From Pandoraea horticolens (GTDB lineage Bacteria > Pseudomonadota > Gammaproteobacteria > Burkholderiales > Burkholderiaceae), in NCBI RefSeq assembly GCF_902459555.1, contig NZ_CABPSM010000027.1, positions 1 through 38,602 of the forward strand: 38,602 nt of DNA. The letters are read 5' to 3'. The translations under genes and the position numbers were made by a program. Below are positions 13,698 to 31,272 of this stretch, one piece after another. Every line of letters starts with the position of its first letter. The stretch's first letter is position 1. The notes under the pieces are model-generated. The model saw only the letters and a program-made list of their open reading frames with translations. It did not search any database and had not been told where the DNA came from.

Positions 13698-13747
13698 TGT
13701 CTCGGTAGTCTATCGTCTTGGCATTGCAACTCACCTTTGAGCCCCCT

Positions 13748-14575: not shown

Positions 14576-14623
14576 TGACGGTATCGGGCAAAACCGTCCG
14601 AGGAGGGAATATCGATACCGTCA
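14576..14623. repeat. 11-bp perfect inverted repeat with 26-nt spacer
   Basis: TGACGGTATCG (14576-14586) and CGATACCGTCA (14613-14623) in the 201-bp gap after the SDR gene. A transcript could form a stem, but there is no T run, so it is not a typical terminator. The spacer contains GGAGGGAA with no start codon after it. Confidence 0.6.
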
Positions 14624-14692
14624 GCAGTACCGACATCCCCGCCAGGCATTACCCGAATTACCACGGTATGCCATCGCGGACGCCGATCTTGG

Positions 14693-15111: not shown

Positions 15112-15318
15112 TCCTTATGTCCTTGTCTTGATTCTCTCTATCGAGCGACATGAACGGCTAGATCTTCGATAACTTGCCTGCACCGCTCAGGCCACCAACC
15201 ATACGCCTGATTGAGGTAGTCTCAAAAGACGTTTTTCCCTCGATTTAAGACGAACGACTCTATCTGCAAACTTCCCTTACAATGAGACAACTCAGGATTC
15301 TCGGTTGACAATCTTTTC

Positions 15319-16266: not shown

Positions 16267-16415
16267 TCGATCCTTTGTCTTTCCATAAGGTGTGGAACGT
16301 CGAGTTCGGAATCCGCGACAGCACTTCAAAGGGACCTGAGAAATCGCATTGGTCCATATTCGGGAAGATCAAGCCGCCGATCTTCAAATGCTAATTTTCG
16401 GGAATCGTCCCCATG

Positions 16416-17462
16416 TCACGGGATGTACCGCTGCTGCCTTAGGTCCTCCAGCATCTCGAGATACATCTCCTCGCTATCGATGCAATCGTGGAACCCGTGC
16501 TTACGTGCCTTGATGGTGCTCGTGATGTTGTCGAAGGTAGACTTGAAAATCAAGTCGCCGAACTTCCACGATACGATTTCCTCGTAGGCGTACGGGCGCA
16601 GACCATGCTGTCCGACCAGTTCATTCCATAGCCCGGCCTTGCCCGTCATCATTGGGTGCAACGACATCGGGATCGGCTCCCCTGCGGGAACATCGAAGAA
16701 ATCAGCCAAACGTGGCCAGACCCGGGCCCATCGGAAGTAGTCACCGTTGGTGATGTTGTAGACCTCACCGCGGCAGTGCGCAGTTTCCCCGGCCCAATCG
16801 ACGGCTCGAGCGAGGAGCCGGGTGTCCGTCACCTGATACAGCGCGTCGTAGGCAGCACGAGGTCCGGGAAACGACATGGGAACGCCAAGGGCTTTTGCGA
16901 TAGTCCCGTAAATGGCAATCACCATAAGCAGGTTCATCGGATTCCCAACCGCCAGACCAGCAACGCCTTCCGGACGAAGCGCGGTCCAAGACCACGCCTT
17001 CCCGACCGAGTGGTCTCTGAGGAAGTCCTCTTGGTCGTAATAGAAGTTGGGGGGCATATGGCGAGGATCGCTCTCTTTCGCCGGCGAGAGTGGCATTGCA
17101 CCGAGTTGCACACCGTAAGCCTTGCCACCCTGCATCAGAGTGATGTGGCGCAGATTCGGCGCGTGCTTCTCCATCACCTCGACCATGTTCCTGAGCATCA
17201 GCAAGTTCACGTCGACGAGTTCTGCTGGGGAGGATTTCTCTTGATAGGCAGCGAACACGAGATGGGTCGCGTGCGGAACCCGAGAGAAATATCTTTCGCA
17301 GGAATCGCGGTCGAGCAGGTCGACCGGCAAGTGCTTCGCGCGTGTGGGGAAATCCGGTGCCCGGCGGGAGACGGCTACCAGGTCCACGTCCTTGTTTTCA
17401 TAGAACGCGAGGACTCCCCGGCCTATGACGCCTACCGCACCTGCAACGACAACTGTCTTCAT
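16416..17462 (-). CDS. PRISE-type atypical SDR (progesterone 5-beta-reductase / iridoid synthase-like)
   Basis: A 348-residue extended/atypical SDR. The cofactor motif is VAGAVGVIGRG (residues 6-16). The hallmark NFYYxxED motif of PRISE enzymes is present as NFYYDQED (139-146), and MQGGKAYG (110-117) supplies the Lys that replaces the classical site. PRISE enzymes reduce activated C=C bonds of enones with NADPH; plant members act on steroids and iridoid precursors and bacterial members on small enones. The natural substrate is unknown. Last gene of the leftward run that includes the NTF2-like, DJ-1 and SDR genes; about 170 bp separates it from the preceding gene. Confidence 0.85.
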   Translation of the reverse strand: MKTVVVAGAVGVIGRGVLAFYENKDVDLVAVSRRAPDFPTRAKHLPVDLLDRDSCERYFSRVPHATHLVFAAYQEKSSPAELVDVNLLMLRNMVEVMEKHAPNLRHITLMQGGKAYGVQLGAMPLSPAKESDPRHMPPNFYYDQEDFLRDHSVGKAWSWTALRPEGVAGLAVGNPMNLLMVIAIYGTIAKALGVPMSFPGPRAAYDALYQVTDTRLLARAVDWAGETAHCRGEVYNITNGDYFRWARVWPRLADFFDVPAGEPIPMSLHPMMTGKAGLWNELVGQHGLRPYAYEEIVSWKFGDLIFKSTFDNITSTIKARKHGFHDCIDSEEMYLEMLEDLRQQRYIP

Positions 17463-17633
17463 GGTTAGGCCACTCGCAAGATGAATACGTTAATTTCCGC
17501 ACCGGTAACCTACCCTTTTCGGCCTTTCAACACGTCGCCGCATGCCCGCAGCGACGTGTGTGAAAAAGGGGCACCGGCCTGAGTCCGGAACAGACCGGTT
17601 CCCGTCAGCAAAATGCAGGGGCGCTAACGCCGG

Positions 17634-18098
17634 TTAGGGTGCGGAATCGTTCCACATGTCGCGATGCAGCTTCCAAGTGCCACCCTGCTTCAAGAAGATG
17701 AGGATCTGCTTGCCTCGGTATTTGAGCTTTCCGCTTTGATCGTGGATCTCGGCATCCGACACCTCTGTCACGACCCGATCGTCTCCGTAGAATTCGTAAT
17801 TGCTGAAAGATACGGTGTCAGGCTGAGATCCGGTGCTGGCTTTGGTGAAATGCTCGACGATTGCTGCGGCCCCGACGATCCTGTTGCCTCCGGGCGGCAG
17901 GAGCGAGCCATCTTTTGTATAGAGGCGGCCTATCGCCTCGTAATCGCCGCGCACATAGGCTTGCACCCATCGGGCGTTCTCGGCCTTGATGGCCGCTTCG
18001 GTTTGAGGCTGCAGGCCATTGGCATATGCCGGCAGGGCAACCACGAAAGGCGAAAGGCAAACTGCAACGGCAGCTGCAAAATGACGAATTTGTCGCAT
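17634..18098 (-). CDS. Exported NTF2-like (DUF4440 / SgcJ-type) protein
   Basis: A 154-residue protein with a Sec signal peptide (MRQIRHFAAAVAVCLSPFVV..., cut after AYA) followed by a cone-shaped NTF2-like domain. Typical are the N-terminal helix IKAENARWVQAYVRGDYEAIGRL (shown here to ARWVQAYVRGDYEAIGRL) and the segment YTKDGSLLPPGGN, ending in WKLHRDMWN. Such domains bind or isomerise small hydrophobic molecules; no catalytic residues can be assigned. It follows the DJ-1/PfpI gene by 45 bp, so it is probably co-transcribed and also acts outside the cytoplasm. Confidence 0.85.
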   Translation of the reverse strand: MRQIRHFAAAVAVCLSPFVVALPAYANGLQPQTEAAIKAENARWVQAYVRGDYEAIGRLYTKDGSLLPPGGNRIVGAAAIVEHFTKASTGSQPDTVSFSNYEFYGDDRVVTEVSDAEIHDQSGKLKYRGKQILIFLKQGGTWKLHRDMWNDSAP

Positions 18099-18143
18099 CT
18101 ATCTGTTTCCAATCAAGGGGAAGTGAAGGTGACCGCGAGTATT

Positions 18144-18998
18144 TCAGCGAACGCCTGGGATTCGGGCGAGGCCCTTGGATGCGCCTGGCAATTCCTTGTC
18201 GACCATTGCGACGACTTCCGGCCGTGCGTCTCTGGGATGACCGGAATGGAATGGCGGAGCGGGATCGTATTCGATCACGAGCTGCGTGAATTCGGCGGCC
18301 TGTTGCCCCCTCATCTTCGAGGCAACGCGAAGTGCGAAGTCGATGCCCGCTGTCACGCCGCCACCGCTCATGAACCGGCCATTGTCGTCTTCTACAAAAC
18401 GATCCGGAACGCCGATCGCGCCATATTCGGCGAGCTTGTTGACGAAGGCCCAATGACAGGCACTTCGCTTGCCTTTGAGGATGCCAGTTGCAGCGAGTAC
18501 GAGCGATCCGTTGCAAACCGACGTAACGTGTTTGGCACTGTCAGCCAGGCGCCGAATCTGCTTCAGGTATTCCGGACGCATAGGCGCCGACAAATCGGAA
18601 CCACCGGGCACCAGGATCAGGTCGGTCTTCTCGATATCGGCCAGTCGTTCAGTGTTGCCATAAACAACCCCGAACTCGAGGGTGACGTTACCGCCATTGA
18701 GACTTCCATAGCGAACGTTCGTATTTGGTAGCCGGTGAAAAATCTCGCTAGGGCCAGCGAAATCGAGAAGCGTGCCCCCGTCGTAATTCACGATCAGAAT
18801 ATTGAGGGGTTCATTGGGGGCAAGCTCCGCCTGACTGCCCGCCTGCGCAAAAGCGGGAGTGGCGCTACCGAGCAAAGCGCCACCCCCCACTACGGCGCCG
18901 AGCGCGGCGACGCTTCCGAACTTGAGGGCACCTCGGCGGGAAAGACCTGCTCTGCTAAGTTGCTCTCCATAGGCGTTATTTTTGCTATGGTCGGTCAA
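18144..18998 (-). CDS. Tat-exported DJ-1/PfpI protein, isocyanide-hydratase-like
   Basis: A 284-residue protein. The N-terminus has a twin-arginine signal (SRRGALKFG with Arg21-Arg22, then a long Ala/Gly hydrophobic stretch, cut after TPAFA). The mature part matches GATase1/DJ-1 proteins of the cyclohexyl-isocyanide hydratase group: TLLDFAGPSEIF with the conserved Asp, TSVCNGSLVLAATG with the elbow Cys, and GGGVTAGIDFAL. After the Cys, Asn replaces the Thr usual in the hydratase. Start: the frame is open from GTG 19016, but GGAG lies 8 nt before TTG 18998, so I chose TTG. An exported member of this family is unusual. Confidence 0.85.
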   Translation of the reverse strand: MTDHSKNNAYGEQLSRAGLSRRGALKFGSVAALGAVVGGGALLGSATPAFAQAGSQAELAPNEPLNILIVNYDGGTLLDFAGPSEIFHRLPNTNVRYGSLNGGNVTLEFGVVYGNTERLADIEKTDLILVPGGSDLSAPMRPEYLKQIRRLADSAKHVTSVCNGSLVLAATGILKGKRSACHWAFVNKLAEYGAIGVPDRFVEDDNGRFMSGGGVTAGIDFALRVASKMRGQQAAEFTQLVIEYDPAPPFHSGHPRDARPEVVAMVDKELPGASKGLARIPGVR

Positions 18999-19155
18999 GA
19001 TAATTGCTCCTTGCACTTTGGCCCCTCTCCAAGCACAGTCAGGTTGGGCCAGATTGAAGAACCGCCACGACGAAAATCCTGGCGGGCGTTAATTGGGTTT
19101 GCGGGTTTGGATAGACAGCGATGACGTTCAGGGGCTGAAATCGGTCACCGAAGAC

Positions 19156-19902
19156 TTAAAGCTGCGAAGCGCCACCATCGACAACCAGTTCGGTGCCGAC
19201 GACGTAGGAGGATTCGTCACTGGCGAGATAAAGCGCCGCGTAGGCAATGTCCTCTGCCCGCCCCATGTGGCCCACTGGAATGGCTTTCGCGAGTTCCACC
19301 TTGAGGTTGCGAACATCCTCGTCGGCCATCCCCCACCTGCCAATCAGGGGCGTCTCCGTCGCGCCGGGGGCGATCGCGTTAAAGCGGATTTTTCGATCGA
19401 GAAACTCGTAGGACCAGCTACGGGCAAGCGATCGCACCGCCGCCTTTGCCGCCGCAGTCAGCGAAATGCCATGCTTGCCGGTCTGATCGACGAACGACGT
19501 ATTGAGAATGACCGAGGAACCCTCTCTCAAGTCCGGCAGCACCGCTTGAAGCGTGAACACCACGCCCTTGACGTTGATGTCCATGATCTCGCTGTAGAGT
19601 TGCTCGTCGATGTCGTTGAGTGGGGATGGGAAAGCCCAGCCAGCATTGGCAAAAACGACATCCAGGCCACCAAACTTCTCTTTTACCTCGGCAGCAATCG
19701 CTCGCATGTCCTTAAGCGAACGCACATCGCCCTTGAGGACGAGCGAGTTCTCGCCAAGTTCTGCCTTTACGCGATCAAACACGGCCTCATCGCGACCCGT
19801 TACCGCCACTTTGGCACCTTCTGCAATGAAGAGCTTGGCAGTGGCAAGACCAATGCCACTCGTGCCACCCGTGATCAACGCCGATTTGTTCTTAAGCCTC
19901 AT
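19156..19902 (-). CDS. SDR-family oxidoreductase lacking the catalytic Tyr
   Basis: A 248-residue SDR. TGGTSGIG (11-18), NAG (86-88 region), Asn110 and Ser136 of the catalytic set and Lys153 are present, but the Tyr of YxxxK is Thr149 (TAAAK). The C-terminus GTELVVDGGASQL is normal. Start ATG 19902 has AAAGGA about 9 nt upstream. First gene of the leftward run SDR - DJ-1/PfpI - NTF2-like - PRISE. The missing Tyr makes ordinary dehydrogenase activity uncertain, though some SDRs tolerate it. Confidence 0.9.
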   Translation of the reverse strand: MRLKNKSALITGGTSGIGLATAKLFIAEGAKVAVTGRDEAVFDRVKAELGENSLVLKGDVRSLKDMRAIAAEVKEKFGGLDVVFANAGWAFPSPLNDIDEQLYSEIMDINVKGVVFTLQAVLPDLREGSSVILNTSFVDQTGKHGISLTAAAKAAVRSLARSWSYEFLDRKIRFNAIAPGATETPLIGRWGMADEDVRNLKVELAKAIPVGHMGRAEDIAYAALYLASDESSYVVGTELVVDGGASQL

Positions 19903-19996
19903 TTCTGTGTTCCTTTCATTACTTCGCTACACATCAAGTCGCAGAGCAAAGAGTACTGCTGCGCTTGCCTCAAATTGATTTCGTAGGCGAATTATG

Positions 19997-20345
19997 GAAT
20001 CCACACAGAATGGCGCAAAGGACTTATATCCCTTAAAAAACGACACGTTGACCAAATGATTCTTAGGCAGCGGTCGCCGTTTCCGATCTCCCACCGAACT
20101 GCTGCACGCTTTCCGCAACGCCGCTGCTGCGCGAACTGATGATCCGATCCGCCAGCCTTCCGATGCGCTATCCGGAGGGCGGGATGGAATCGCGCCTGGT
20201 CACGCGGCACCTCGACGAAATCGCGCCGGCGCCGACCGGAAACCTTCATTTGCCCATGCCGGCCGACGCCCGGCTTCGCAAGATCGTCGAAACGTTCGTG
20301 GACCACACCGCCGATCGCGGGACGATCCGAATCCACAACGAATGG
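19997..20345. repeat. Imperfect 17-bp direct repeats bracketing the AraC fragment
   Basis: GAATCCACACAGAATGG at 19997-20013 and GAATCCACAACGAATGG at 20329-20345 match at 15 of 17 positions. The second copy starts right where AraC similarity ends. A weaker relative (GATTCCACACAGG) occurs at 21258-21270. This could be a duplication or recombination scar, or coincidence. Confidence 0.45.
20067..20327 (+). pseudogene. Internal fragment of an AraC-family regulator
   Basis: In one frame the DNA reads AVSDLPPNCCTLSATPLLRE, LMIRSASLPMRYPEGGMESR, then LHLPMPADARLRKIVETFVD and ADRGTI. This pattern (TPLLREL, then LHLPMPxDxRLRKI) is the linker between sensor and DNA-binding parts of cupin-type AraC regulators. 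A TAG at 20064 closes the frame upstream, and similarity is lost after GTI, so both the sensor start and the helix-turn-helix are missing. The same frame runs on into the next gene, which creates a misleading long open frame. Confidence 0.65.
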
Positions 20346-20375
20346 GTTGACACCCCGTCGGGTTGGGATATATTT

Positions 20376-20408
20376 GTACCTGTTTGTTTTGTTTTTCGTA
20401 CCAGTACA
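20376..20408. promoter_or_regulatory. Paired GTACC sites upstream of the isocyanide-hydratase-like gene
   Basis: GTACCTGT (20376-20383) and GTACCAGT (20398-20405) are direct repeats exactly 22 bp apart, just upstream of the start at 20421. The second is part of CGTACCAGTACA (20397-20408), repeated exactly, on the other strand, before the DUF485 gene. MocR regulators usually bind direct repeats, so the MocR gene of this module is the natural candidate. Confidence 0.6.
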
Positions 20409-20420
20409 AAGGATAAATTT

Positions 20421-21131
20421 ATGACTATCCCATCGGATGTTCACCTCAAGATCGGCGGCATCATCTTTCCCGGCATGGACCAATGCGACTTCACCGGCCC
20501 GTTCGAGGCCCTCGCCCGAGTCCCCAATTCCACTTTCTTCACCCTCTGGAAGGACAAGAACCCAGTCCGCGACCTCGCAGGCATGCTGCTTCTGGCCGAC
20601 ACCACTTTCGACGAAGCACCCCAGCTCGACGTACTGCTCGTCCCCGGCGGCTACGGCCAGGAAGCGCTGATGAACGACGAGACTGTTCTCGGCTTCATCC
20701 GCAAACAGGCCGAAGGCGCCCGCTACGTCTATTCGGTATGCACCGGCGCACTCCTTTGTGGTGCCGCCGGCCTGCTGCACGGCCGCCGCGCCACCACGCA
20801 CTGGACTGCGATGGACGTGCTGCCGCTATTCGGCGCAACGCCCAGCAACGACCGCGTGGTCATCGACGACAAGTTCGTCAGCGCCGGTGGCGTCACGTCC
20901 GGCATCGACGGCTCGCTGATCGTGGCGTCGTTGCTGCGCGGAGAAACCGTCGCACAGGAACTCCAGCTATATATGTCCTACGATCCGAAGCCGCCGTTCC
21001 AGGCCGGCTCGCCGGCCACGGCCCCCGCAGCGGTGCTCGCCACCGTCACCGAACGGGCCCGGGTCATCACCGAAAAGCGCCTGGCGACCGGGCAGGCGTA
21101 CCAGGCCGCACAGGCAGGCGTAGGCGCCTAA
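20421..21131 (+). CDS. inhA: DJ-1/PfpI family isocyanide (isonitrile) hydratase-like enzyme
   Basis: A 236-residue cytoplasmic protein without signal peptide, similar along its length to cyclohexyl-isocyanide hydratase, which turns R-NC plus water into the N-formyl amine. Equivalent active-site residues are visible: Asp23 (QCDFTGP), Cys107 and Thr108 (YSVCTGALLCGAAGLL), then RATTHW and SAGGVTSGIDGSL. The C-terminal YDPKPPFQAGSPATAPA also matches. Start ATG 20421 has AAAGGA 7 nt upstream; the frame is open further left only because of the AraC fragment. First gene of the module; GTACC sites precede it. Substrate is inferred, not shown. Confidence 0.82.
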   Translation: MTIPSDVHLKIGGIIFPGMDQCDFTGPFEALARVPNSTFFTLWKDKNPVRDLAGMLLLADTTFDEAPQLDVLLVPGGYGQEALMNDETVLGFIRKQAEGARYVYSVCTGALLCGAAGLLHGRRATTHWTAMDVLPLFGATPSNDRVVIDDKFVSAGGVTSGIDGSLIVASLLRGETVAQELQLYMSYDPKPPFQAGSPATAPAAVLATVTERARVITEKRLATGQAYQAAQAGVGA

Positions 21132-21389
21132 CCCCATCTCCGACGGGGCGAGTGCAGCCGCGCCCGCCCCCCCCATTTCCGCCCTAAAAACCGGTGTCCG
21201 GCTTCGCGAGATCGGTTCCCCCCTCCCTGCCGCCCCCCCCCTTACGGCCGAACCATCGATTCCACACAGGTTTACCCCGATTTTTTTCCATTTGACCGAT
21301 CGATCTGACCCATCTACATTGAATGGTACATATATATTTATGTACTGGTACGTAAATACAATTTGATCCTCGTTGATCTGGAGAAAAGA
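21132..21389. other. 258-bp gap with DUF485/actP promoter region
   Basis: Contains two C-rich runs (C8 near 21167-21174 and C9 at 21233-21241), then an abrupt AT-rich segment (about 21315-21360) with the paired GGTAC sites. The AT-rich part probably holds the promoter. No RNA gene or coding frame is evident. Confidence 0.5.
21325..21352. promoter_or_regulatory. Paired GGTAC sites upstream of the DUF485-actP operon
   Basis: GGTAC at 21325-21329 and at 21347-21351, again 22 bp apart and in direct orientation, opposite in strand to the pair at 20376. The 12-mer TGTACTGGTACG (21341-21352) is the exact reverse complement of the one at 20397-20408. Identical spacing and a 12/12 shared core argue for one regulator acting on both promoters. 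Confidence 0.6.
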
Positions 21390-21731
21390 ATGGACGCGCA
21401 CATAAGACTGTCAGAACCCATCGCCCCGCCGTCAACGGCGGAGTTCCAGCCCGGCACGTTCGAGGCCTGTGTCGCGTCGAAGAGTCGTCTGATCATCCGC
21501 CTCACCGCCGCATTTTTCGTCTGGTACTTCGCTTTGCTGATTGGCGATGGATGGTTTCGTTCGCAATTCGCTACCCCCATTGCCGGCATGGTGAACGTCG
21601 GCATGGTGCTCACGCTATCGCAGTATCTTTTCGGCGCCGGCCTCGCGATTTTCTACGCGTGGCGCATGCGCACCATCGACGCACAAATCGCTGCGGCAAC
21701 GGCAGCCGGTCCGGAAGGAGCACAACGATGA
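21390..21731 (+). CDS. DUF485 small membrane protein (symporter partner)
   Basis: A 113-residue protein with two hydrophobic segments: IIRLTAAFFVWYFALLIGDG and the stretch AGMVNVGMVLTLSQYLFGAG followed by LAIFYAWRMR. DUF485 (YjcH-type) proteins are encoded directly before ActP-type symporters and are thought to assist them. Start ATG 21390 follows GGAGAAAAGA. Its stop overlaps the actP start by 4 bases (ATGA), so the two are coupled. Confidence 0.92.
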   Translation: MDAHIRLSEPIAPPSTAEFQPGTFEACVASKSRLIIRLTAAFFVWYFALLIGDGWFRSQFATPIAGMVNVGMVLTLSQYLFGAGLAIFYAWRMRTIDAQIAAATAAGPEGAQR

Positions 21732-23632
21732 AACGGGACGCATGTTCGCGCCTTTTGCCGCGGATTGCCGCGTGCACGGCGACCCTTCTTTTCCCGGCGC
21801 TCGCGCCTGCGGCCGAAGTGGTGCCGCACGCCTACCGGCTGCACGCCTTTTCCGTTTTCGCCGCGGTGATCGCGTTCACGCTGATCGTCACCTGGTTCAG
21901 CGCGAGACGAGGTAAAAGCGCCAGCGAGTTCTACACCGCCGGAGGCGGCATCTCGGGCCTGAAAAACGGGCTGGCCATTGCCGGCGACTATCTGTCCGCC
22001 GCCGCGTTCCTCGGCGTGTCCGGCCTGATCGCGCTGTACGGCTACGACGGCATGCTGTATCTGGTCGGCTTCTTCGCCGCGCTCATTCCGGTGCTGCTGC
22101 TGGTCGCGGAACCGTGCCGCAATCTCGGGCGTTATACGTTCGGTGACGTCCTCGCCTACCGCCACAGCTTCAAGACCTCCAAGATGCTGGCAGCGTTTTC
22201 GAGTGTGATCATCGCGATCTTCTACATGATCCCGCAGATCGTCGGCGGCGCCGTGCTGCTCTATGCGCTGCTCGGCGTGCCCTACGAAGTATCGGTGCTG
22301 GCCGTCGGCGTCCTGATGCTGCTGTATGTCACGTTCGGCGGCATGCGCGCCACCACATGGGTACAGATCATCAAGGCAGCGTTGCTGCTGAGCATGTGCG
22401 GCCTGCTGGCGATGCTGTCCGTTGCGCCGTTCGGCTTCAACGTATCAACGCTGCTCGACACTCTCTCGCACCAGCCCGCGTTGCGCGACTGGCTGCTCGC
22501 TTTGCACCGCTTGCCAGCCGACGACAACACGCTCATCTCGCGAACTTTTTTCGAACCCGGCCTTTATCTCAAGGACCCAGTCGAGCTCTTATCACTGGGT
22601 CTCGCACTGACGCTCGGCACGGCCGCAATGCCGCATATCCTGATGCGCCTGTTTTCCGTGAAGAACGCGCAGACCGCCCGCCAGTCCGTGCTGTGGGCCA
22701 TGTTGTGGATCGGCGGTTGTCACCTGCTGATCATCGTGATCGGATTTGCCGCGGCTTATTATGTTGGCGCGGCCGGCATTTCGTCGGCCGACAAGGGCGG
22801 CAATCTGGCCGCGCTGCTGCTCGCTCAACACCTTGGCGGCGGTGCCTCGACGACCGGCGGGAACATACTGCTTGGCGCCGTGGCCGCGATCGCGTTCGCC
22901 ACCATCGTGGCGGTCGTCGCCGGTCTCACGCTGGCCGCCGCGTCGTCGCTTGCGCACGACGTGTACGTCGGCGTGCTGAAGGGCGGCAATGCTTCGGATC
23001 ACGAACAGGTTCGCGCCGGCAAGGTGGCGTCGGTCCTCGTCGCGTTCATCGCTACAGGCGCAGGCTTGTTCGCCAAAGGCCAGAACGTCGCGCATCTCGT
23101 CGGACTCGCCTACGCAGTCGCAGCGTCCGCCAATCTGCCGGCGTTGCTGGCAACGCTCTACTGGAAACGCTGCAACACTGTCGGCGTGATAGCCGGTGTG
23201 GTCGGCGGATCGCTCGTCGCGATCGCCCTCGTGCTGGTGTCGCCGAACATGCAGTATCCGCTCGCCGTTCGCGCCGAGGCGACGCGTGCGCTCGCGGCAT
23301 CCAGTACGCGGCTGGCCGCGCTCGAAGCCGAAGGTGCGATCCGGTATACGGGGCCGGGCGATTTCTCCGCCGCACGCGACGCCGCGCGCACGAGCCGCGA
23401 CGCGGCGCAGTCCACGCTCGATGCGATCGGCTCGCGCACGACCAGCCTCGTCGGCCTTCGGGCACCGCTCGTATCGCTGCGCAATCCGGGCATCGTATCG
23501 GTGCCGCTCGGCTTCCTGTTTGTGGTGATCGGTTCGCTGTTGGGCCGCCGGCGCGGATCGGGCACGGGGTGGAAAGCGCTCGTCTATCGGCGGGACAGCG
23601 GAGTCGGCGTCGCCCATGCCGTCGATCACTGA
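21728..23632 (+). CDS. actP: ActP-type sodium:solute symporter (carboxylate uptake)
   Basis: A 634-residue inner-membrane symporter with signal-like N-terminus (cut near APAAE) and the ActP signatures EFYTAGGGISGLKNGLAIAG, DYLSAAAFLGVSG, YRHSFKTSKMLAAFSS and FATIVAVVAGLTLAAASSLA. Family members carry acetate, glycolate, pyruvate or other short carboxylates with Na+. Longer than the E. coli protein (about 550) mainly through an inserted, Ala/Arg-rich helical segment near residues 512-585, between late membrane segments. Coupled to DUF485. In this module it is the probable importer of the carboxylated substrate. Confidence 0.9.
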   Translation: MKRDACSRLLPRIAACTATLLFPALAPAAEVVPHAYRLHAFSVFAAVIAFTLIVTWFSARRGKSASEFYTAGGGISGLKNGLAIAGDYLSAAAFLGVSGLIALYGYDGMLYLVGFFAALIPVLLLVAEPCRNLGRYTFGDVLAYRHSFKTSKMLAAFSSVIIAIFYMIPQIVGGAVLLYALLGVPYEVSVLAVGVLMLLYVTFGGMRATTWVQIIKAALLLSMCGLLAMLSVAPFGFNVSTLLDTLSHQPALRDWLLALHRLPADDNTLISRTFFEPGLYLKDPVELLSLGLALTLGTAAMPHILMRLFSVKNAQTARQSVLWAMLWIGGCHLLIIVIGFAAAYYVGAAGISSADKGGNLAALLLAQHLGGGASTTGGNILLGAVAAIAFATIVAVVAGLTLAAASSLAHDVYVGVLKGGNASDHEQVRAGKVASVLVAFIATGAGLFAKGQNVAHLVGLAYAVAASANLPALLATLYWKRCNTVGVIAGVVGGSLVAIALVLVSPNMQYPLAVRAEATRALAASSTRLAALEAEGAIRYTGPGDFSAARDAARTSRDAAQSTLDAIGSRTTSLVGLRAPLVSLRNPGIVSVPLGFLFVVIGSLLGRRRGSGTGWKALVYRRDSGVGVAHAVDH

Positions 23633-23669
23633 TACGCGCTCGCCGCGTCCTTCGCGGCCCAGCGGTGGT

Positions 23670-25025
23670 TCAGGCCGAAAGCGTGGACGACGTTGTCTGG
23701 CACACCCTGACGAGTGCTTCGACGAAGTCGAGCGTTTCAGCTGGCGTCATTCGGGCAGCCGTCACACGGATACCTTGTTGCCCCTCCAGACAGAACTCGT
23801 GCCCCGCCCGGACAAGCCAGCCGGCGGCGAACAGCCGCTGCGCCACTTCGAGTTCATTCTGCAGCGGAACCCAGACGTTGAGGCCGGCGCCGGGCAGCAC
23901 GTCGAAGCCGCGCTTTTTCAGTGCGGCCGTCAGCAACTGGTGACGCTCGCGGTACGCGATGCCCGCCGCCGCGATCTTCTTCTGCACCGAGCCCGTGGTC
24001 ACGAGTTCGAACACGAGACGCTGCACCAACGTGCTCACCCACCCCATCCCCACGCTCTGGCGCTCCTCCAGACGCTGAACGGTTTGCGCGTCGCCGGTGG
24101 AGAAAGCGATCCGGTAGTCCGGCCCGAGCGCCTTCGACAGCGATCGCACCGTCAGCCAGCGCCGCACGCCGGTGTGCCACGAATGGTAGGGCGCAAGGTT
24201 CAGCAGGTTCGTATGGTCGTCGTCGATGAACAGCACGTCGCTATTGCCGCTGACCATTTTTTCCAGCTCGGATGCCCGCGCTCGCGACGTCACCACGCCT
24301 GTCGGATTATGGGCGCGGCTCGTCGAGATCACCGCTTTGACCCCAGCCTTCAGCGCCTTGCGAAGGCTTGCCGGCACGATGCCCGCAGGGTCGAGCGCGA
24401 GCGGTACGGCATCGATGCCCATCGAACGAACGAGAGAATGCACGCTGATATAACCAGGGTCTTCGACTGCAACCCTGTCTCCCGCCCGGATGCCCGAGAC
24501 AATGAGTGCCCGCTCGATGAGGTCGAGTGCGCCTGCGGACACGAATATTCCGCCGGAAACCTCGATACGATCGTCGATGAACTGCTTGCGCGCCCAGTCA
24601 ACGAAAGCGTCGTCGTTCCGATGCTCGCCGTAGAGCCGGGGTTCGACGCTCATGCGCGCCATCGCCTCGTGGACTTCGGCCTCGTCCGGAAGAAGGGCCA
24701 CGTCGGGATTTCCGTCTCTCACGAAACGGGTCTGCGCGGCGCGGCCGGCCGCGTCGCGCGCGCCGGCCGCCGACGCGTGACGGCGCACGGTCGACCCTTG
24801 CCTCCCCTCCCCGGAGATCAGACCTCCGTCGCGAAGCTGCCGGTAGGCGACCGCCACCGTGTTCTTGTTAATGCCGAGGCTGTCCGCGAGCGCGCGAACC
24901 GTTGGCAGCGTATCGCCGGGTTTCAGACGATCTTCGAGTATCGCGCACTCGATCGCGCGCCTGATTGCGTCGGCCTTTCCTTCGGATGGACTGCTGTTGT
25001 CCAGATCGATGACGAGCGCTTCCAT
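23670..25025 (-). CDS. MocR/PdxR-type regulator (GntR HTH + aminotransferase-like domain)
   Basis: A 451-residue regulator. Residues 10-80 form a GntR winged helix (LPTVRALADSLGINKNTVAV, YRQLRDGGLISGEGRQGS). Residues 105-445 form a fold-type I aminotransferase domain with the PLP lysine at 298 (RSLSKALGPDY), Asn240 of AHNPTG and the Asp in FIDDDH. Such proteins sense PLP adducts of amino acids or amines. Start ATG 25025 has GGGGAA upstream. It is convergent with actP and divergent from the M20 gene, at the centre of the module, and is the best candidate for binding the GTACC pairs. Confidence 0.92.
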   Translation of the reverse strand: MEALVIDLDNSSPSEGKADAIRRAIECAILEDRLKPGDTLPTVRALADSLGINKNTVAVAYRQLRDGGLISGEGRQGSTVRRHASAAGARDAAGRAAQTRFVRDGNPDVALLPDEAEVHEAMARMSVEPRLYGEHRNDDAFVDWARKQFIDDRIEVSGGIFVSAGALDLIERALIVSGIRAGDRVAVEDPGYISVHSLVRSMGIDAVPLALDPAGIVPASLRKALKAGVKAVISTSRAHNPTGVVTSRARASELEKMVSGNSDVLFIDDDHTNLLNLAPYHSWHTGVRRWLTVRSLSKALGPDYRIAFSTGDAQTVQRLEERQSVGMGWVSTLVQRLVFELVTTGSVQKKIAAAGIAYRERHQLLTAALKKRGFDVLPGAGLNVWVPLQNELEVAQRLFAAGWLVRAGHEFCLEGQQGIRVTAARMTPAETLDFVEALVRVCQTTSSTLSA

Positions 25026-25041
25026 GAATTCCCCATGCTTG

Positions 25042-25059
25042 ATAAGACATAGTTTATCT
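25042..25059. promoter_or_regulatory. GATAA-N8-TTATC inverted repeat at the MocR promoter
   Basis: The sequence GATAAGACATAGTTTATC lies about 17-35 bp upstream of the MocR start codon. It could be an autoregulatory site, but it is short and in an AT-rich promoter region, so it may be chance. Further up, GGTAC (25141-25145) and TTACCAATAC (about 25159-25168) resemble the GTACC sites of the other promoters less exactly. Confidence 0.3.
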
Positions 25060-25196
25060 GACAATGGGACAAGCATATTGACTTATTCCGGATGGCTTTC
25101 CCGCTCTCCTTGAAACAGCAGTGAACGGCAATGTTTCCATGGTACGAACTTTTATTCATTACCAATACGTAACACACCCGATCGGACAAACCCATT

Positions 25197-26366
25197 ATGG
25201 ATGACACACTTTTCGACCCGGTTCTTCTGACCCAGCGCATGGTACAAACCCAGACGGTCAATCCGCCCGGCGACGAACTGCTGCTCGCCGCGGAACTTAA
25301 AGACCTGCTGAGCGAATTGGGACTTCACACCCTCGTTCAGGAAATCGCGCCCGGCCGCGCAAACCTGGTCGCATGGAGTACCGTCTCGGCCAGCCGCCGC
25401 CTGTGCTTCACCGGGCACCTCGACACCGTTCCGTTCGGCGCGGGAAGCTGGAGGGCTTCGCCGTTGAGCGGACACATCGATGGCGACCGGCTGTACGGAC
25501 GCGGCTCGTCTGACATGAAAGGCGGCATTGCGGCCTTCGTGTCGGCGCTCAAGCGTTATAAGGACCTGCACGGAACGCTACCCTGCGTACTGGTGATCCT
25601 GACCGCAGGCGAAGAGACCGGCTGCGAGGGCGCGAAGCGCCTGAACGAACTGGACGTGCCCGATCTGAACGTCGGTGCGATGATCGTTGGCGAGCCGACC
25701 TCGAATCAATGCGCGATCGGCCATAAAGGCGCCCTCTGGCTGAATGCCCACACGTCCGGCTGCGCGGCTCACGGCGCGATGCCCGAACTCGGGGACAACG
25801 CGATTTATCACGCGTCGGACGCGATCCAGCAACTGCGGATCTTTGACTTCGGGACTCCCGACGATCCACTGCTCGGCCGCCCCTCGCTGAATGTCGGAAC
25901 GATCTCGGGCGGAGCGAACGTCAATTCGGTCCCCGACGCCACCACGTTTTCGATCGACATCCGTACGGTCGGTGGCACGTCGCACGACGCGCTGGTCGAT
26001 CGCCTCGGCGCCTATCTCGGGCAGAAGGTACGGCTGTCCGCCGCCGTCGATGTCCCGGCGCTGACCAACGAACTGGAGAATCCGTGGCTCGGCTACGCGA
26101 TTGAAACGGCCGAGGCTGCGACCGGCGTTCGAACGGGACAAACAACCGTCGCCTACTTCAGCGATGGCCCGGTGCTGAGAGACTGGCTCGGCGAAGTACC
26201 GACCGTGATTCTGGGGCCCGGTGAACCCTCGCAGGCCCATCAAACTGACGAATGGTGCAGCGTGCAGCGCATTCGTCAATGCACCGGGATCTATCTGCAA
26301 CTGATCTCTGGCTGGCAGGCGTGCGCCGGCGCAAATTCGCAAGCGCACGCCGCGACGACGGCATGA
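25197..26366 (+). CDS. M20-family N-acyl-amino-acid hydrolase (ArgE/DapE-like)
   Basis: A 389-residue di-zinc hydrolase with all expected ligands: His74-x-Asp76 in FTGHLDTVPFG, Asp106 in SSDMKGG, Glu139-Glu140 in TAGEETGCEG, Glu166 in VGEPTS, and the C-terminal His in GPGEPSQAHQTDEW. A dimerisation (lid) domain lies between, about 175-290. The subgroup removes acyl groups from N-acyl amino acids (acetylornithine, succinyl-diaminopimelate). Here, beside an isonitrile-hydratase-like enzyme and a glycine-controlled dehydrogenase, N-formyl- or N-acyl-glycine is a reasonable guess. The ribosome site is weak. Divergent from MocR. Confidence 0.9.
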   Translation: MDDTLFDPVLLTQRMVQTQTVNPPGDELLLAAELKDLLSELGLHTLVQEIAPGRANLVAWSTVSASRRLCFTGHLDTVPFGAGSWRASPLSGHIDGDRLYGRGSSDMKGGIAAFVSALKRYKDLHGTLPCVLVILTAGEETGCEGAKRLNELDVPDLNVGAMIVGEPTSNQCAIGHKGALWLNAHTSGCAAHGAMPELGDNAIYHASDAIQQLRIFDFGTPDDPLLGRPSLNVGTISGGANVNSVPDATTFSIDIRTVGGTSHDALVDRLGAYLGQKVRLSAAVDVPALTNELENPWLGYAIETAEAATGVRTGQTTVAYFSDGPVLRDWLGEVPTVILGPGEPSQAHQTDEWCSVQRIRQCTGIYLQLISGWQACAGANSQAHAATTA

Positions 26367-26381
26367 CTGTATTTTTTTGTG

Positions 26382-26410
26382 TTGAAAAAGTGGCATCGAT
26401 CATGTAGCGT
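26382..26410 (+). promoter_or_regulatory. Possible promoter of the riboswitch-dadA transcript
   Basis: TTGAAA (26382-26387), a 17-bp spacer and TAGCGT (26405-26410), about 19 bp before the first aptamer. The -35 match is good and the -10 match is weak. The short T run just before it (about 26371-26377) may belong to the end of the M20 transcript. Confidence 0.35.
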
Positions 26411-26428
26411 TTCGTCGTTCTACACATG

Positions 26429-26611
26429 CAGTACGGGAGAGATCGTTCCTCGCGAACGACGCCGACGGAGCAACCGCCCCGGAAACTCTCAGGCAAAAGG
26501 ACCGTACTGCCAGAACATCTGGAGAGCGGCGCTTCGCGCGCCCACCGAAGGGGAGCCCCCCGGCCGCGAAGCGGCCGTGCGGGCGAAACTCTCAGGTACA
26601 TGGACAGATGG
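26429..26611 (+). ncRNA. Tandem glycine riboswitch (two aptamers)
   Basis: Aptamer 1: P1 is GCAGTACGG (26429-26437) pairing with CCGTACTGC (26502-26510); inside are GGGAGAG, the core GCCGACGGAGCAACCGCCCC and GGAAACTCTCAGGCAAAAGG. Aptamer 2 follows after a short linker: P1 is CATCTG (26516-26521) with CAGATG (26605-26610), inside are GGAGAG, CCACCGAAGGGGAGC and GAAACTCTCAGGTACATGGA. These are the conserved elements of the gcvT-type glycine riboswitch, here in the cooperative two-aptamer form. It precedes the DadA-type gene rather than a gcv operon. Confidence 0.95.
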
Positions 26612-26663
26612 GGCATCGGCGCCGGTTTGAATCCAACGCGGCCGGCGATGCTCAACTCATCTG
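26605..26663 (+). promoter_or_regulatory. Expression platform: P1 strand can pair with the ribosome site
   Basis: The 3' P1 strand of aptamer 2, CAGATG (26605-26610), is complementary to two identical hexamers: CATCTG in P1 itself (26516-26521) and CATCTG at 26658-26663, which overlaps the CTGGA ribosome-binding region 8 nt before the ATG at 26673. The alternative helix can extend by G-C/G-U to 8 bp. Glycine binding would hold CAGATG in P1 and free the ribosome site, giving an ON switch. A further GC-rich hairpin (about 26613-26651) lies between. Confidence 0.65.
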
Positions 26664-26672
26664 GATCATGTC

Positions 26673-27878
26673 ATGCCACGAATCGCCATCATCGGCGCCG
26701 GCATTACCGGCGTCACCACTGCGTATGCGCTCACGCAACGCGGTTATCAGGTCACCGTTTTCGATCGGCATCGCTATGCCGCGATGGAAACGTCGTTCGC
26801 CAACGGCGGGCAATTGTCCGCGAGCAATGCGGAAGTCTGGAACAGCCGCGCGACCGTGTTCAAGGGGCTGCGCTGGATGTTCACGCGCAATGCCCCGCTG
26901 CTGCTCAATCCGCGGCCGAGCTGGCACAAGTACAGCTGGATCGGCGAATTCCTGCGTCAGATTCCGCACTACCGCAATAACACGATCGAAACCGTGCGTC
27001 TCGCGATTGCGGCGCGCGAGCACCTGTTCGGTATCGCGGAGCGCGAGGGTATTCAGTTCGATCACGAGCGGCGCGGCATCCTGCATTTCTACGCCACGCG
27101 CAAGGAGCACGAGGCAGCAGCGCGCGTCAACGAACTGCTGCGCACCGGGGGACTCGACCGGCGGGCTGTCACGCCGGAGGAAATCAGAACCATCGAGCCG
27201 GCACTAAATGGCAGCTTCTTCGGCGGATTCTTTACGGAGTCCGATTCGACCGGTGACATCCACAAGTTCACGCGAGGCCTTTCGGCCGCGTGCGAACGGC
27301 TCGGCACGACGTTCCATTACGACACGGACGTGCAAGCGATCGATTCGCTCGACGGCGGCCGCATTGCGATTACCCGCACCGCAGGCCGTGATACGTTCGA
27401 TGGCGTTGTGATCTGCGCAGGCGTGGGAAGTCGGTCGCTCGCGGCCATGGTCGGCGACCACGTGAATGTCTATCCCGTGAAGGGTTATTCGATTACCGTG
27501 CATCTCGACGATGAGGCGAGCCGTCGAAGCGCGCCGTGGGTCAGCCTGCTCGACGATCACGCGAAAATCGTGACGAGCCGACTTGGCGTCGACCGCTTCC
27601 GCGTCGCGGGCACTGCGGAGTTCAATGGCGTGAACCGTGACATACGTGCGGATCGGGTGGAGCCGCTGGTTCAATGGACGCGTCGATACTTTCCGGGCGC
27701 TTCGACTGCGAGGGTAGTTCCGTGGGCCGGCCTGCGCCCCATGCTCCCGAGCATGCTGCCGCGCACGGGGCGTGGCAAACGCCCGGGGATTTTCTATAAC
27801 ACGGGGCACGGACATCTTGGTTGGACGCTCTCTGCTGCAACGGCGGAGGCTGTGTCGTCCTTGATAGATAATCGCTAG
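26673..27878 (+). CDS. DadA-type FAD-dependent D-amino acid/glycine dehydrogenase
   Basis: A 401-residue flavoprotein. FAD-binding GAGITG at residues 8-13 and Asp/Arg of VFDRH follow the DAO/DadA pattern; also ETSFANGGQLSASNAEVWN, WHKYSWIGEFLRQIP and C-terminal YNTGHGHLGWTLSAATAEAV, the DadA signature. Such enzymes oxidise the Calpha-N bond of small D-amino acids or glycine derivatives to the 2-oxo acid plus ammonia. Control by a glycine riboswitch points to glycine or a glycine derivative as the substrate. It ends the module; no terminator hairpin is obvious downstream. Confidence 0.9.
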   Translation: MPRIAIIGAGITGVTTAYALTQRGYQVTVFDRHRYAAMETSFANGGQLSASNAEVWNSRATVFKGLRWMFTRNAPLLLNPRPSWHKYSWIGEFLRQIPHYRNNTIETVRLAIAAREHLFGIAEREGIQFDHERRGILHFYATRKEHEAAARVNELLRTGGLDRRAVTPEEIRTIEPALNGSFFGGFFTESDSTGDIHKFTRGLSAACERLGTTFHYDTDVQAIDSLDGGRIAITRTAGRDTFDGVVICAGVGSRSLAAMVGDHVNVYPVKGYSITVHLDDEASRRSAPWVSLLDDHAKIVTSRLGVDRFRVAGTAEFNGVNRDIRADRVEPLVQWTRRYFPGASTARVVPWAGLRPMLPSMLPRTGRGKRPGIFYNTGHGHLGWTLSAATAEAVSSLIDNR

Positions 27879-27920
27879 CCCTCGGGCGACGAGTTCCGTC
27901 GGAACGTTGGGCCCGCACTC

Positions 27921-28007
27921 ATGACTGTTCGCTTCGGCAAACACCGGACCACATGGCTTGGCCTCATCGCCATGTGGTTCGTCGTGTTCGCTCCGATAAT
28001 CGGTCGG
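27921..28007 (+). pseudogene. Truncated DUF2946-like gene (first ~29 codons)
   Basis: ATG 27921 reads MTVRFGKHRTTWLGLIAMWF then VVFAPIIGR. A basic start followed by WLxLxAMxLxVxAPxxS is how DUF2946 proteins (small, copper/cation-linked membrane proteins) begin, but the His/Cys-rich rest is absent. The frame runs on into DNA that on the other strand encodes an integrase piece, so the gene has been cut at about 28007. Evidence is a short motif. Confidence 0.4.
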
Positions 28008-28106
28008 CTAACCGTTCGTCAGGAGCGCCGCTACGTGCAAGCCGTCGCGATCGCTCACCTTGAACATTTTTTCCTTAGGCGTCAGCGCGTCCAACTCACG
28101 GCTGGA
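28008..28106 (-). pseudogene. Relic of a tyrosine integrase N-terminus (DUF4102-type)
   Basis: On the minus strand the frame reads SSRELDALTPKEKMFKVSDR and then DGLHVAALLTNG and a stop. xLKPKEKxFKVSDxDGLYxxV is the arm-binding N-terminal start of P4-type integrases. Stop codons on both sides show it is a fragment; no catalytic part was found between here and the next gene. It marks the left limit of the foreign segment that carries the defence genes. Confidence 0.6.
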
Positions 28107-28272
28107 TCACTCCCACTCGATCATCAACAGACCGCCCAAACCCGCGTGGTTAAAGGATTTGGCTATGATCGAAATGGGCCTTTACCGTCGCTTTTACCGT
28201 CACCGCCGCATACCTTTTGCTGACGCGGGAGATGGGGCGATTGGCGAGGCGACGACTCTGGCAACACCATTA

Positions 28273-28557
28273 TCAATCAGCTTCAATTATACCGAACAGG
28301 CGACCGCACTTCATCAAGGCGACGGTGATTTGGGGATTGTTGCTCCAGTCGTAACCTAGATACGACCACAGCAAGTTATCCAAATATCCTGGCGTGACCT
28401 TCAACGCTTGCTCGGCACCGCAGCAGAAAAGAACCCGACTGCCCTCCCCGGCATCACGCCTCTCCGTCCTTGCCTTGGTCACAAGCCGACAGGCGATCAT
28501 ACCGCCCCAGATGTCAGAAACTAATGCATCATTTCTCTGTTCCGAGAAGTGTCCCAT
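28273..28557 (-). CDS. Small open frame of unknown function (doubtful)
   Basis: A 94-residue frame with four Cys, containing LWSYLGYDWSNNPQITVALM. I recognise no family, and there is no convincing ribosome site before ATG 28557. It may be a real small gene or part of the same decayed island DNA as the integrase relic. Listed because the surrounding 870 bp have no better gene. Confidence 0.25.
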   Translation of the reverse strand: MGHFSEQRNDALVSDIWGGMIACRLVTKARTERRDAGEGSRVLFCCGAEQALKVTPGYLDNLLWSYLGYDWSNNPQITVALMKCGRLFGIIEAD

Positions 28558-29221: not shown

Positions 29222-29284
29222 TGCGTATGCGCCCCGTCATTGAATGAAAACCAACGGGCGCAACTCTCGGGGGAACGCACGCAA

Positions 29285-31270
29285 ATGTATATCGAACAGC
29301 TTCTTCTAACGAATTTCCGTTGCTTCGGGCCGGCTGGCACATCAATCGATTTGACGAGCGGTCTTACGACTTTCGTGGGAGTCAACGGCGCCGGCAAGAC
29401 GGCTGCGCTACAAGCGCTCCAGCGCCTCTTCGGGATCACTGGCGAGCAGCGACGCCTTCGTCGCCAAGATTTTCATGTGCCTGCAGCTGAGCCTGCGCCA
29501 CCTCTCCAACGCGCACTCACTCTTGAGGCGATTCTGGCATTTCCGGAGCTAGACGAGGCGGACGCCAACGCTGGGGCGATCCCGGAATTCTTTCAGCAGA
29601 TGGCAGCGGACGACGCCGGACAGCTGAAATGTCGGCTCCGCCTCGAAGCTACCTGGATCGATGACGGCTCGCTTGAAGGCGCCATAGAGCAAAAATATTG
29701 GGCGATCCGTACCCTCGGCGCCTTCGCTGAAGCCGACTGCATCGAACTCAAGGCACTCGACCGCGCTCGTATCCAAATGATCTATGTGCCCGCATCACGC
29801 GATGGCACCTCCCAGGTCACGTCCTTCCTGCGCGGCCGCCTCTGGCGTGCAATCAACTGGTCACAAGGTGTAAGGCGAAGCTTCGCCGACGCAGGCAGCG
29901 CTCTCAATGGCGCATTTGCAGCAGAGCCCGCCGTCGATATCGTTGTGGGCGCGGTTACACGGCGGTGGCAGCAAGTTCACACAGCGGGTACCGATACGAC
30001 ACCGCTGTTTCGTCCGATCGACCTGCGCTTCGAAGAGGCCATCCGCAAGGTCGAGGTTGTCTTCCGTCCCGACGAGGCAGGCCGCGAGCGAGCGCTCGAT
30101 GATCTTAGCGATGGACAGCGTTCGCTCTTCCATCTGGCGATGACGGCCGCCACCCTGGATATTGAAGCCAATATCGCTGCAAACGCCGCCGCAGGCTTTC
30201 AGCCAGGGGGCGTTCCCCTCCCTGGCCTTACGCTCATTGCCGTGGAGGAGCCGGAGAACAACCTCGCTCCTTTTTACCTGTCGCGCATCGTTCGCCAGAT
30301 TGAGGAGCTAACCGCCGGTCCACGCGCGCAGGCGGTGATCTCGAGTCACTCGGCAAGCATCCTCGCACGCGTTGATCCCGCTCAGGTCAGGCATTTCCGC
30401 CTAAACCCAGTCGACCGCACGGCGCGCGTGCGCGCGATCCGTCTTCCGCAGGATCAGGAGGAAGCATCAAAGTTTATACGCGAGGCAGTCCGCACCTACC
30501 CGGAACTTTACTTCGCACGCTTTGCCGTCCTAGGCGAAGGCGCCTCAGAGGAGGTGGTACTGCCGCGCCTTGCTGAAGCGATGAATCTCGACATCGACCG
30601 CTCGTTCGTCGCCGTAGTTCCGCTCGGCGGCCGTCACGTCAATCACCTGTGGCGACTTCTGACCGATCTCGACATTCCGCACGCGACCCTTCTCGACCTC
30701 GATTGGGGACGTGACGGCGGCGGCTGGGGACGCATCAAGACCGCATGCACCCAGCTCCTCGCGGTCGGCGTCGCACCTCAGGCCATCTTTGCACAACCAA
30801 GTCCTGCCGGTCCGGCTGCCGACCTCGCGACGTTTGATAGGAATCCCGCCGAGGATTTTGCTGGTTTGACGAACTGGGCAAACGCGCTTCGCCAGCACAA
30901 CGTATTCTTCTGCACTCCGCTCGATCTTGATTACTCGATGCTGCGGGCATTTCCTGGGGCCTATCAAGTTCTAGAACCCGGACGACAAGGTCCATCACAA
31001 CGAGGAAACCCACGCACCGCCGTTCTTGGCGAGGAAGGTCGCCATGGCCTTTACGGCGCGGAACATGAGCAATTGCTGCGCTGGTATCGTTATCTGTTCC
31101 TTGGTCGAGGCAAACCCAGCACCCACGTTCGCGTATTGAGCGACCAGACTTCACAGGCGCTGACAGCTGGTGCGCCGGAAGAATTGCGCGCCCTTCTGAC
31201 CTCGATCTCTGCTCGCCTTGCGCCGCCCCCTCCACCGCCGCAGAACCAACACCAACCCCCGGCGGCCTGA
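29285..31270 (+). CDS. gajA: Gabija protein GajA-like: OLD-family ATPase-TOPRIM endonuclease
   Basis: A 661-residue protein. The N-terminal SMC/ABC-like ATPase has Walker A VGVNGAGKT (31-39), a signature LSDGQRS (about 273-279), Walker B TLIAVEEPE (about 316-323) and the H-loop SSHSA (about 353). The C-terminal TOPRIM nuclease has the Glu motif VLGEGASEE (about 415) and the Asp motif DLDWGRD (about 470). In Gabija, GajA nicks DNA in a sequence-dependent way and is held inactive by nucleotide. ATG 29285 (MYIEQLLLTNFRCF) is the usual family start, though the frame is open 15 codons further up. gajB begins 2 bp after its stop. Longer than the Bacillus prototype; C-terminal tail is Pro-rich. Confidence 0.88.
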   Translation: MYIEQLLLTNFRCFGPAGTSIDLTSGLTTFVGVNGAGKTAALQALQRLFGITGEQRRLRRQDFHVPAAEPAPPLQRALTLEAILAFPELDEADANAGAIPEFFQQMAADDAGQLKCRLRLEATWIDDGSLEGAIEQKYWAIRTLGAFAEADCIELKALDRARIQMIYVPASRDGTSQVTSFLRGRLWRAINWSQGVRRSFADAGSALNGAFAAEPAVDIVVGAVTRRWQQVHTAGTDTTPLFRPIDLRFEEAIRKVEVVFRPDEAGRERALDDLSDGQRSLFHLAMTAATLDIEANIAANAAAGFQPGGVPLPGLTLIAVEEPENNLAPFYLSRIVRQIEELTAGPRAQAVISSHSASILARVDPAQVRHFRLNPVDRTARVRAIRLPQDQEEASKFIREAVRTYPELYFARFAVLGEGASEEVVLPRLAEAMNLDIDRSFVAVVPLGGRHVNHLWRLLTDLDIPHATLLDLDWGRDGGGWGRIKTACTQLLAVGVAPQAIFAQPSPAGPAADLATFDRNPAEDFAGLTNWANALRQHNVFFCTPLDLDYSMLRAFPGAYQVLEPGRQGPSQRGNPRTAVLGEEGRHGLYGAEHEQLLRWYRYLFLGRGKPSTHVRVLSDQTSQALTAGAPEELRALLTSISARLAPPPPPPQNQHQPPAA

Positions 31271-31272
31271 CC

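Follow-up and report, generated by a model that had tools for sequence, protein, structure and literature searches.

A candidate isocyano carboxylate catabolic module and its glycine riboswitch in Pandoraea horticolens

Introduction

The closest described relative of the system reported here is the isonitrile hydratase InhA of Pseudomonas putida N19-2 and P. fluorescens, a DJ-1 family enzyme with an Asp/Cys/Thr set that, according to two papers, probably serves to protect cells from isonitrile natural products (PMC10971408, PMC10792529). We analyzed a contig of Pandoraea horticolens of 38,602 nucleotides (NZ_CABPSM010000027.1, from assembly GCF_902459555.1; hereafter, the window), in which an isocyanide-hydratase-like DJ-1 protein (ICH) has the same family and residue set as InhA but belongs to a different sub-group, and is encoded within a regulated set with a transporter, a hydrolase and a regulator. 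An initial annotation had proposed that six features (ICH, a DUF485-ActP symporter pair, a MocR regulator, an M20 hydrolase and a DadA-type dehydrogenase with a glycine riboswitch) form a pathway for a carboxylated isonitrile, for example isocyanoacetate, that ends in the oxidation of glycine to glyoxylate; all six were found in the window (Table 1).

The same two-step chemistry as proposed here, from isonitrile to formamide and then to amine plus formate, occurs in the route formed by isonitrile hydratase and NfdA. NfdA (N-substituted formamide deformylase) is an amidohydrolase-superfamily enzyme whose substrates are neutral N-substituted formamides, whereas the window hydrolase is an M20 protein and its proposed substrate a carboxylate. 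The M20 deacylases ArgE and DapE share domains, metal ligands and fold with the window hydrolase, which nevertheless scores below the cut-offs listed and falls in a clade of its own among the homologs compared. Glycine riboswitches control genes for glycine catabolism and transport through the same tandem aptamers, but the one in the window is located upstream of a gene for a DadA-type flavoenzyme; a literature search pairing glycine riboswitches with D-amino acid dehydrogenases found nothing, and the word "dehydrogenase" was not found in the main text of the survey PMC6944388. Finally, the fungal CrmA pathway, as described in parts of PMC9381783, involves the same kinds of metabolites, an isocyano acid and its N-formyl amino acid; that pathway is biosynthetic and fungal, whereas the window module would be catabolic and bacterial.

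Results

Conservation of the gene set

At E ≤ 1e-85, the M20 hydrolase had matches in 25 of 398 family genomes, five of them 57–100% identical (the window's own, G000, plus G002, G177, G383 and G333) and the other 20 at 43–48%; among 300 genomes of the order, only the window's own M20 reached 1e-105. Together with a sixth homolog, from a plasmid of C. necator C39, the five form a single clade (support 100/100) against 23 other M20 proteins. All six loci of this clade contain, within 10 kb, ICH (73–100% identity), DUF485 (32–100%), ActP (60–100%) and MocR (47–100%), so that co-conservation, the main test that the initial annotation had set for its pathway, holds across several genera. The genes occur in two orders: ICH, DUF485-actP, reversed mocR and M20 in Pandoraea and Trinickia, and mocR divergent from ICH-M20-DUF485-actP in Cupriavidus, followed by riboswitch-dadA in C. 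necator N-1 (pBB1) and G333. Additionally, M20 (63%) and ICH (80%) of Pseudomonas sp. NA-150 were assigned by equal size to the same replicon, a contig of 6934480 bases, in a protein search that does not display adjacency; both proteins were likewise assigned by equal size to a metagenome contig of 8387 bases. Further members of the M20 clade were seen in Pseudomonas sp. NPDC088368 and in Burkholderia sp. 22PA0106 and CF099.

The association is a property of the clade. Neither ICH, ActP, DUF485 nor MocR was found in 17 loci with a 42–48% identical M20 (L115–L122 and L202–L210; 19.9 kb each, 15.4 kb for L118), of which L119 holds a DadA relative (40%), and none of 80 further M20 loci (26–48%, several on short contigs) contained two of the six families; M20 proteins in general were thus rejected as a marker of the module. 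M20 relatives in Pantoea, Klebsiella, Variovorax and Methylobacterium adjoin other genes.

A search for ICH itself gave matches at E ≤ 1e-95 in 11 of 284 family genomes, and at E ≤ 1e-80 in three of the 398 genomes of a phylum-wide sample, including the window's own. Near the ICH genes of 14 loci (at least 70% identity; not a random sample) we found MocR in ten, DUF485-ActP in seven, and M20 and DadA in six each.

In Pandoraea communis (G002) the whole set is conserved as a block, beyond which the only match to the fetched 19.9-kb region is a 570-base piece of an SDR gene (85.6%; 19,337–19,905). Because similarity ends at both edges of the block, this piece excepted, the module appears to act as a unit, and we are nearly certain that it is a functional one. 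In the window it consists of several transcription units (ICH; DUF485-actP, whose genes overlap by 4 bases; mocR, convergent with actP; M20; and riboswitch-dadA), which, with a palindrome ahead of two of them, rules out a single operon.

ICH, M20 and the other proteins

The best solved relative of the window DJ-1/PfpI protein is the isocyanide hydratase 3NON (E 3.3e-60), with residues 7–221 of 236 aligned, that is, similarity to a proven enzyme over the full length. Asp17, Cys101 and Thr102 of 3NON align with Asp23, Cys107 and Thr108, in agreement with the initial annotation, and the set is kept in 18 of 19 aligned rows, the P. fluorescens enzyme among them. The sole exception is a second DJ-1 protein of the window (18,144–19,016), which has Asn instead of Thr beside the catalytic Cys and an apparent twin-arginine translocation (TAT) signal, and lies within a PRISE/NTF2/DJ-1/SDR block common to G008. 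An AlphaFold model of ICH (predicted local distance difference test score, pLDDT, 60.9) was too poor and was not used.

The M20 protein contains both domains of the family and its set of metal ligands, retained in full as initially annotated: H74, D106, E139, E140, E166 and H348, plus H192, N243 and R256 of the lid, are invariant in all 29 aligned rows, the window included. In NCBIfam it is neither ArgE nor DapE (best scores 200.3 bits against 289, and 193.4 against 217.6), and no cut-off was reached among the matches listed (25 of 49 models). NfdA was also discarded as an identity for this enzyme, NfdA being an amidohydrolase-superfamily protein and the window hydrolase an M20 one.

The symporter is a member of the SSF family, below the NCBIfam cut-offs for ActP/MctC (491.9 vs. 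670 and 482.7 vs. 750), and would serve for monocarboxylate uptake. The regulator combines a GntR helix-turn-helix with an aminotransferase domain, as MocR proteins do, and is not PtsJ according to NCBIfam (356.6 bits, cut-off 573).

A palindrome shared by ICH and the transporter

An operator-like palindrome, with the pattern GTACYRGTACAWA, precedes ICH and DUF485-actP. As the pattern was built from these promoters, its presence there is by construction, and the test is its scarcity elsewhere. The 6.0-Mb draft genome of the window strain (G000) contains only these two exact matches, and those of G002 and G177 likewise lie only before ICH and DUF485-actP; in G383 and G273 the only exact match is before ICH, and in G333 there is one before ICH and one before another mocR-like gene. 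Matches to the reversed pattern in G000, G002, G177, G383, G333 and G273 numbered 0, 1, 0, 2, 0 and 0. In the window, four sites match with at most one mismatch, with 0.07 expected. Degenerate half-sites, GGTACGAA and TACCAATACGTAA (2 mismatches to TACCAGTACATAA), lie between mocR and M20; degenerate sites were left out of the genome counts. Related but non-matching repeats lie ahead of ICH in C39, G298 and G223. The shared palindrome links the transporter and ICH to a single regulator, which is presumably the MocR of the locus; a literature search on MocR/PtsJ operators found nothing. The sigma-70-like promoter of ICH is weak evidence by itself, as a scan of 19,900–28,300 gave 2 sites with 2.0 expected.

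A tandem glycine riboswitch precedes dadA

The glycine riboswitch that the initial annotation had placed before the DadA-type gene is confirmed, and is moreover tandem. Aptamer 1 scores above the gathering cut-off of RF00504; aptamer 2 was not detected with the Rfam model, even at E values of up to 10, and has the same, invariant core, which aligns in all 21 dadA upstream regions compared. By eye, one pair of its P1 stem changes on both sides between groups, from A-T to C-G, and is broken in L168. The CAGATG at 26,605–26,610 is able to pair with CATCTG either at 26,516, within the aptamer, or at 26,658, beside the start codon; in the ligand-free minimum free energy fold of 26,505–26,690 all six bases of 26,658–26,663 pair with CAGATG, and 26,666–26,671 are paired as well. 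This fold would fit a translational switch, probably ON rather than OFF.

DadA matches PRK12409 (DAO) with 724.1 bits (cut-off 494), and its best-scoring relatives with a solved structure are glycine oxidases (66.6 bits). Close homologs exist in 12 of 121 relatives, including the window's own, with a tandem riboswitch in all 11 upstream regions read. A tandem-riboswitch dadA lies within 10 kb of ICH in six of the 14 ICH loci. In a tree of a sample of 21 tandem-riboswitch DadA proteins these six occupy three separate places, the starred branches forcing 3 changes, and a single clade is rejected by the approximately unbiased (AU) test both for all six (p 6e-4) and for the four that accompany the M20 module (p 5e-63). 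DadA is thus not a fixed, vertically inherited member of the module: riboswitch-dadA is a separate cassette that joined the neighbourhood of ICH repeatedly, once in the position immediately upstream of it. The simplest cause of this repeated joining of a glycine-controlled gene is that the pathway yields glycine, which the joining suggests but does not prove. G383 and G333 each have a second riboswitch-dadA elsewhere, and Trinickia also has one away from the module. In P. phenoliruptrix, a free-standing copy adjoins glycine-producing genes (kbl-like and tdh); no pattern was apparent among ten genes flanking six other copies, and the free copies have mixed neighbours.

Two Cupriavidus genomes (G298 and G223) have riboswitch-dadA directly upstream of ICH, together with MocR and, in one of them, DUF485-ActP. 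Upstream of dadA, both contain a gene for an FdhF/YdeP-type formate-dehydrogenase-like molybdopterin oxidoreductase (L242:5558–7867 and L243:5349–7790; 961.4 and 958.5 bits vs. 582), found in only these two of the loci compared. Since formate is the expected by-product of deformylation, this neighbour is a hint, and no more than that, in favor of the pathway. An Amidohydro_3 protein in G298 was considered as an NfdA-like deformylase and found no support; a 63% identical relative also occurs in the dadA region of G014.

Table 1. Features of the module in the window.
Feature	Coordinates	Strand	Evidence or remarks
ICH (isocyanide-hydratase-like DJ-1 protein)	20421..21131	+	PF01965, 85.3 bits; 3NON, 206.7 bits
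DUF485 small membrane subunit	21390..21731	+	ATG at 21390; PF04341, 52.4 bits for 21393-21731
SSF symporter, ActP/MctC kind	21728..23632	+	PF00474, 286.5 bits
MocR regulator (GntR plus aminotransferase-like)	23670..25076	-	PF00392 and PF00155
M20 metallo-hydrolase, proposed N-formyl amino acid deformylase	25197..26366	+	PF01546 and PF07687
DadA-type FAD amino acid dehydrogenase, proposed glycine dehydrogenase	26673..27878	+	PF01266, 244.1 bits; PRK12409
Sigma-70-like promoter of ICH (TTGACA-16-TATATT)	20347..20374	+	11/12 positions match
Operator-like palindrome before ICH	20395..20410	+	GTACCAGTACAAA; pattern GTACYRGTACAWA
Operator-like palindrome before DUF485-actP	21339..21354		Reverse strand GTACCAGTACATA; also before DUF485 in G002 and G177
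Degenerate operator-like half-sites between mocR and M20	25141..25172		GGTACGAA, TACCAATACGTAA; by eye, unscored
Glycine riboswitch, aptamer 1	26424..26514	+	RF00504, 73.3 bits (cut-off 32)
Glycine riboswitch, aptamer 2	about 26512..26610	+	P1 CATCTG 26516-26521 with CAGATG 26605-26610
CATCTG repeat beside the dadA start	26658..26663	+	Nine bases before start codon 26673; can compete for CAGATG
Conserved block common to the window and P. communis (G002)	20323..28016		blastn, 91.5% over 7.7 kb

Flanking DNA and other genes near ICH homologs

To the left of the block, pieces from 6,633 to 20,046 are common to G008 instead (88–95%). To the right lie a complete-looking Gabija pair (29,240–33,156; GajA 799.6 bits, GajB 723.7 bits) and the conjugation genes TrbI (PF03743) and VirB8 (PF04335) at 35,259–38,246, so that this flank resembles part of an integrative or conjugative element and the block sits between the genus backbone and island-like DNA.

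Other genes were seen beside ICH homologs. In Trinickia, a gene for a chemoreceptor with an sCache_2 domain (L200:2540–4138) is divergent from ICH; sCache_2 sensors often bind small carboxylates. An MmyB-like (MLTR) XRE regulator adjoins ICH in two genomes of genus g20 (L238:10369–11325 and L241:10382–11218), one of them lacking MocR. Genes for MBL-fold hydrolases adjoin ICH and MocR in the absence of a clade M20 in Thalassospira (L175:8071–8769) and G067 (L158:5–1021 and 3631–4683); since the models that they match differ, their substitution for M20 is no more than a lead. In G827, a genome from outside the order, a relative of ActP (L213:7763–9124; 41%) adjoins a 57% identical ICH. ICH-like genes were also found on 135 plasmid records, mostly of Pantoea (73) and Klebsiella (37), the latter 49% identical among the matches listed.

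Discussion

As the best explanation of the locus we propose, with an even chance of being right, a regulated module for the catabolism of a small isocyano carboxylate; every reaction, the substrate, its transport and the binding of MocR are predicted from sequence. The DUF485-ActP symporter would import the compound, ICH would hydrate the isonitrile through Cys107 and Asp23 to an N-formyl amino acid, and the M20 enzyme would take formate off it. The freed amino acid, most likely glycine, would then bind the tandem riboswitch and switch on DadA, which would oxidise glycine to glyoxylate and ammonia, while MocR, acting at a GTACYRGTAC operator, would control both ICH and the transporter. Import, hydration, deformylation and glycine oxidation is plausible as the most economical order. 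Taking the parts separately, an isonitrile carboxylate as substrate is slightly favored, whereas glycine as the amino acid released falls somewhat short of an even chance. Isocyanoacetate would be the best-fitting substrate, and we suggest tentatively that bacteria make dedicated use of it, or of compounds that release it, as food, with a MocR switch at the first step and a glycine riboswitch at the last. The pathway of the initial annotation hence stands in part: it gains from the co-conservation of the gene set, the second gene order, the shared operator-like site and the repeated joining of dadA, and it loses in that DadA and its riboswitch are not fixed members and that M20 is absent from two loci combining ICH and DadA.

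Several observations weigh against this proposal. ICH lacks the other five families in four of the 14 loci (G008, G248, G302 and G189), as a plain detoxification enzyme would, and seven of nine remoter ICH-like loci (49–59%) are without any other family, the remaining two having a MocR (30%; Thalassospira) or an ActP relative (41%; G827). M20 is missing from G298 and G223 in spite of their dadA-ICH arrangement. The ICHs of the module differ from that of P. fluorescens at several residues, among them the one aligned with Phe158, which is Gly. NCBIfam names the DadA family D-amino acid dehydrogenase, riboswitch-dadA is also found away from ICH, it is absent from the fetched regions of Trinickia and C. 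necator C39, and losses or replacements may be among the three changes in the DadA tree. We know of no natural isocyanoacetate. In literature searches of titles and the beginnings of abstracts, nothing was found among the papers listed on the natural occurrence or breakdown of isocyanoacetate, nor, with subscription literature mostly outside the search, on bacterial catabolism of an isonitrile acid.

Alternatively, the module might serve both defence and nitrogen salvage by handling one or several different isocyano acids, the valine isocyanide of fungi being an example; ICH and M20 would then release an L-amino acid, and the linkage of dadA would reflect a rise in glycine or D-amino acids with some other cause. 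Valine isocyanide, which inhibits bacteria, and its hydration product N-formylvaline are natural fungal metabolites according to passages of PMC9381783, ICH is regarded as a probable defence enzyme (PMC10792529 and PMC10971408), and the four lone ICH genes fit such a role. We consider this unlikely; it leaves unexplained why a glycine-riboswitch dadA lies near ICH in three branches of the tree. It might also be that the DJ-1 protein is no isonitrile hydratase and that what the module breaks down is a cyclic precursor or an N-acyl-, N-carbamoyl- or peptidyl-glycine, from which M20 releases glycine. Against this, every member of the module retains Asp, Cys and Thr, whereas the other DJ-1 protein of the window has Asn for Thr; the palindrome precedes ICH in all six genomes searched, and ICH is present at every locus of the M20 clade. 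We consider this explanation somewhat less likely still.

A chance neighbourhood of unrelated genes, the alternative of an unrelated DJ-1 protein raised in the initial annotation, could draw on the several transcription units and on the free-standing copies of riboswitch-dadA. It is extremely unlikely given that the families occur together in Pandoraea, Trinickia and Cupriavidus at 32–95% identity to those of the window, in two gene orders and with a shared palindrome; for ICH, M20, DUF485-ActP and MocR, the sequence comparisons have refuted it already.

If the proposal of a catabolic module is true, enzymes so far associated solely with defence would also serve feeding, a new type of N-formyl amino acid deformylase would be represented by the M20 clade, and riboswitch-DadA would form a recurrent device for draining glycine. 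A pathway for isocyanoacetate would mean isonitrile catabolism equipped with a transporter, a deformylase and a sensor of the product; it would also imply that this compound has a natural source yet to be discovered. The module offers a genetic handle in a tractable soil bacterium: a transporter, a hydrolase specific to one clade, a riboswitch for the product and a regulator with a candidate operator. Its inducer, once found, would name a natural isonitrile substrate and perhaps an unknown natural product.

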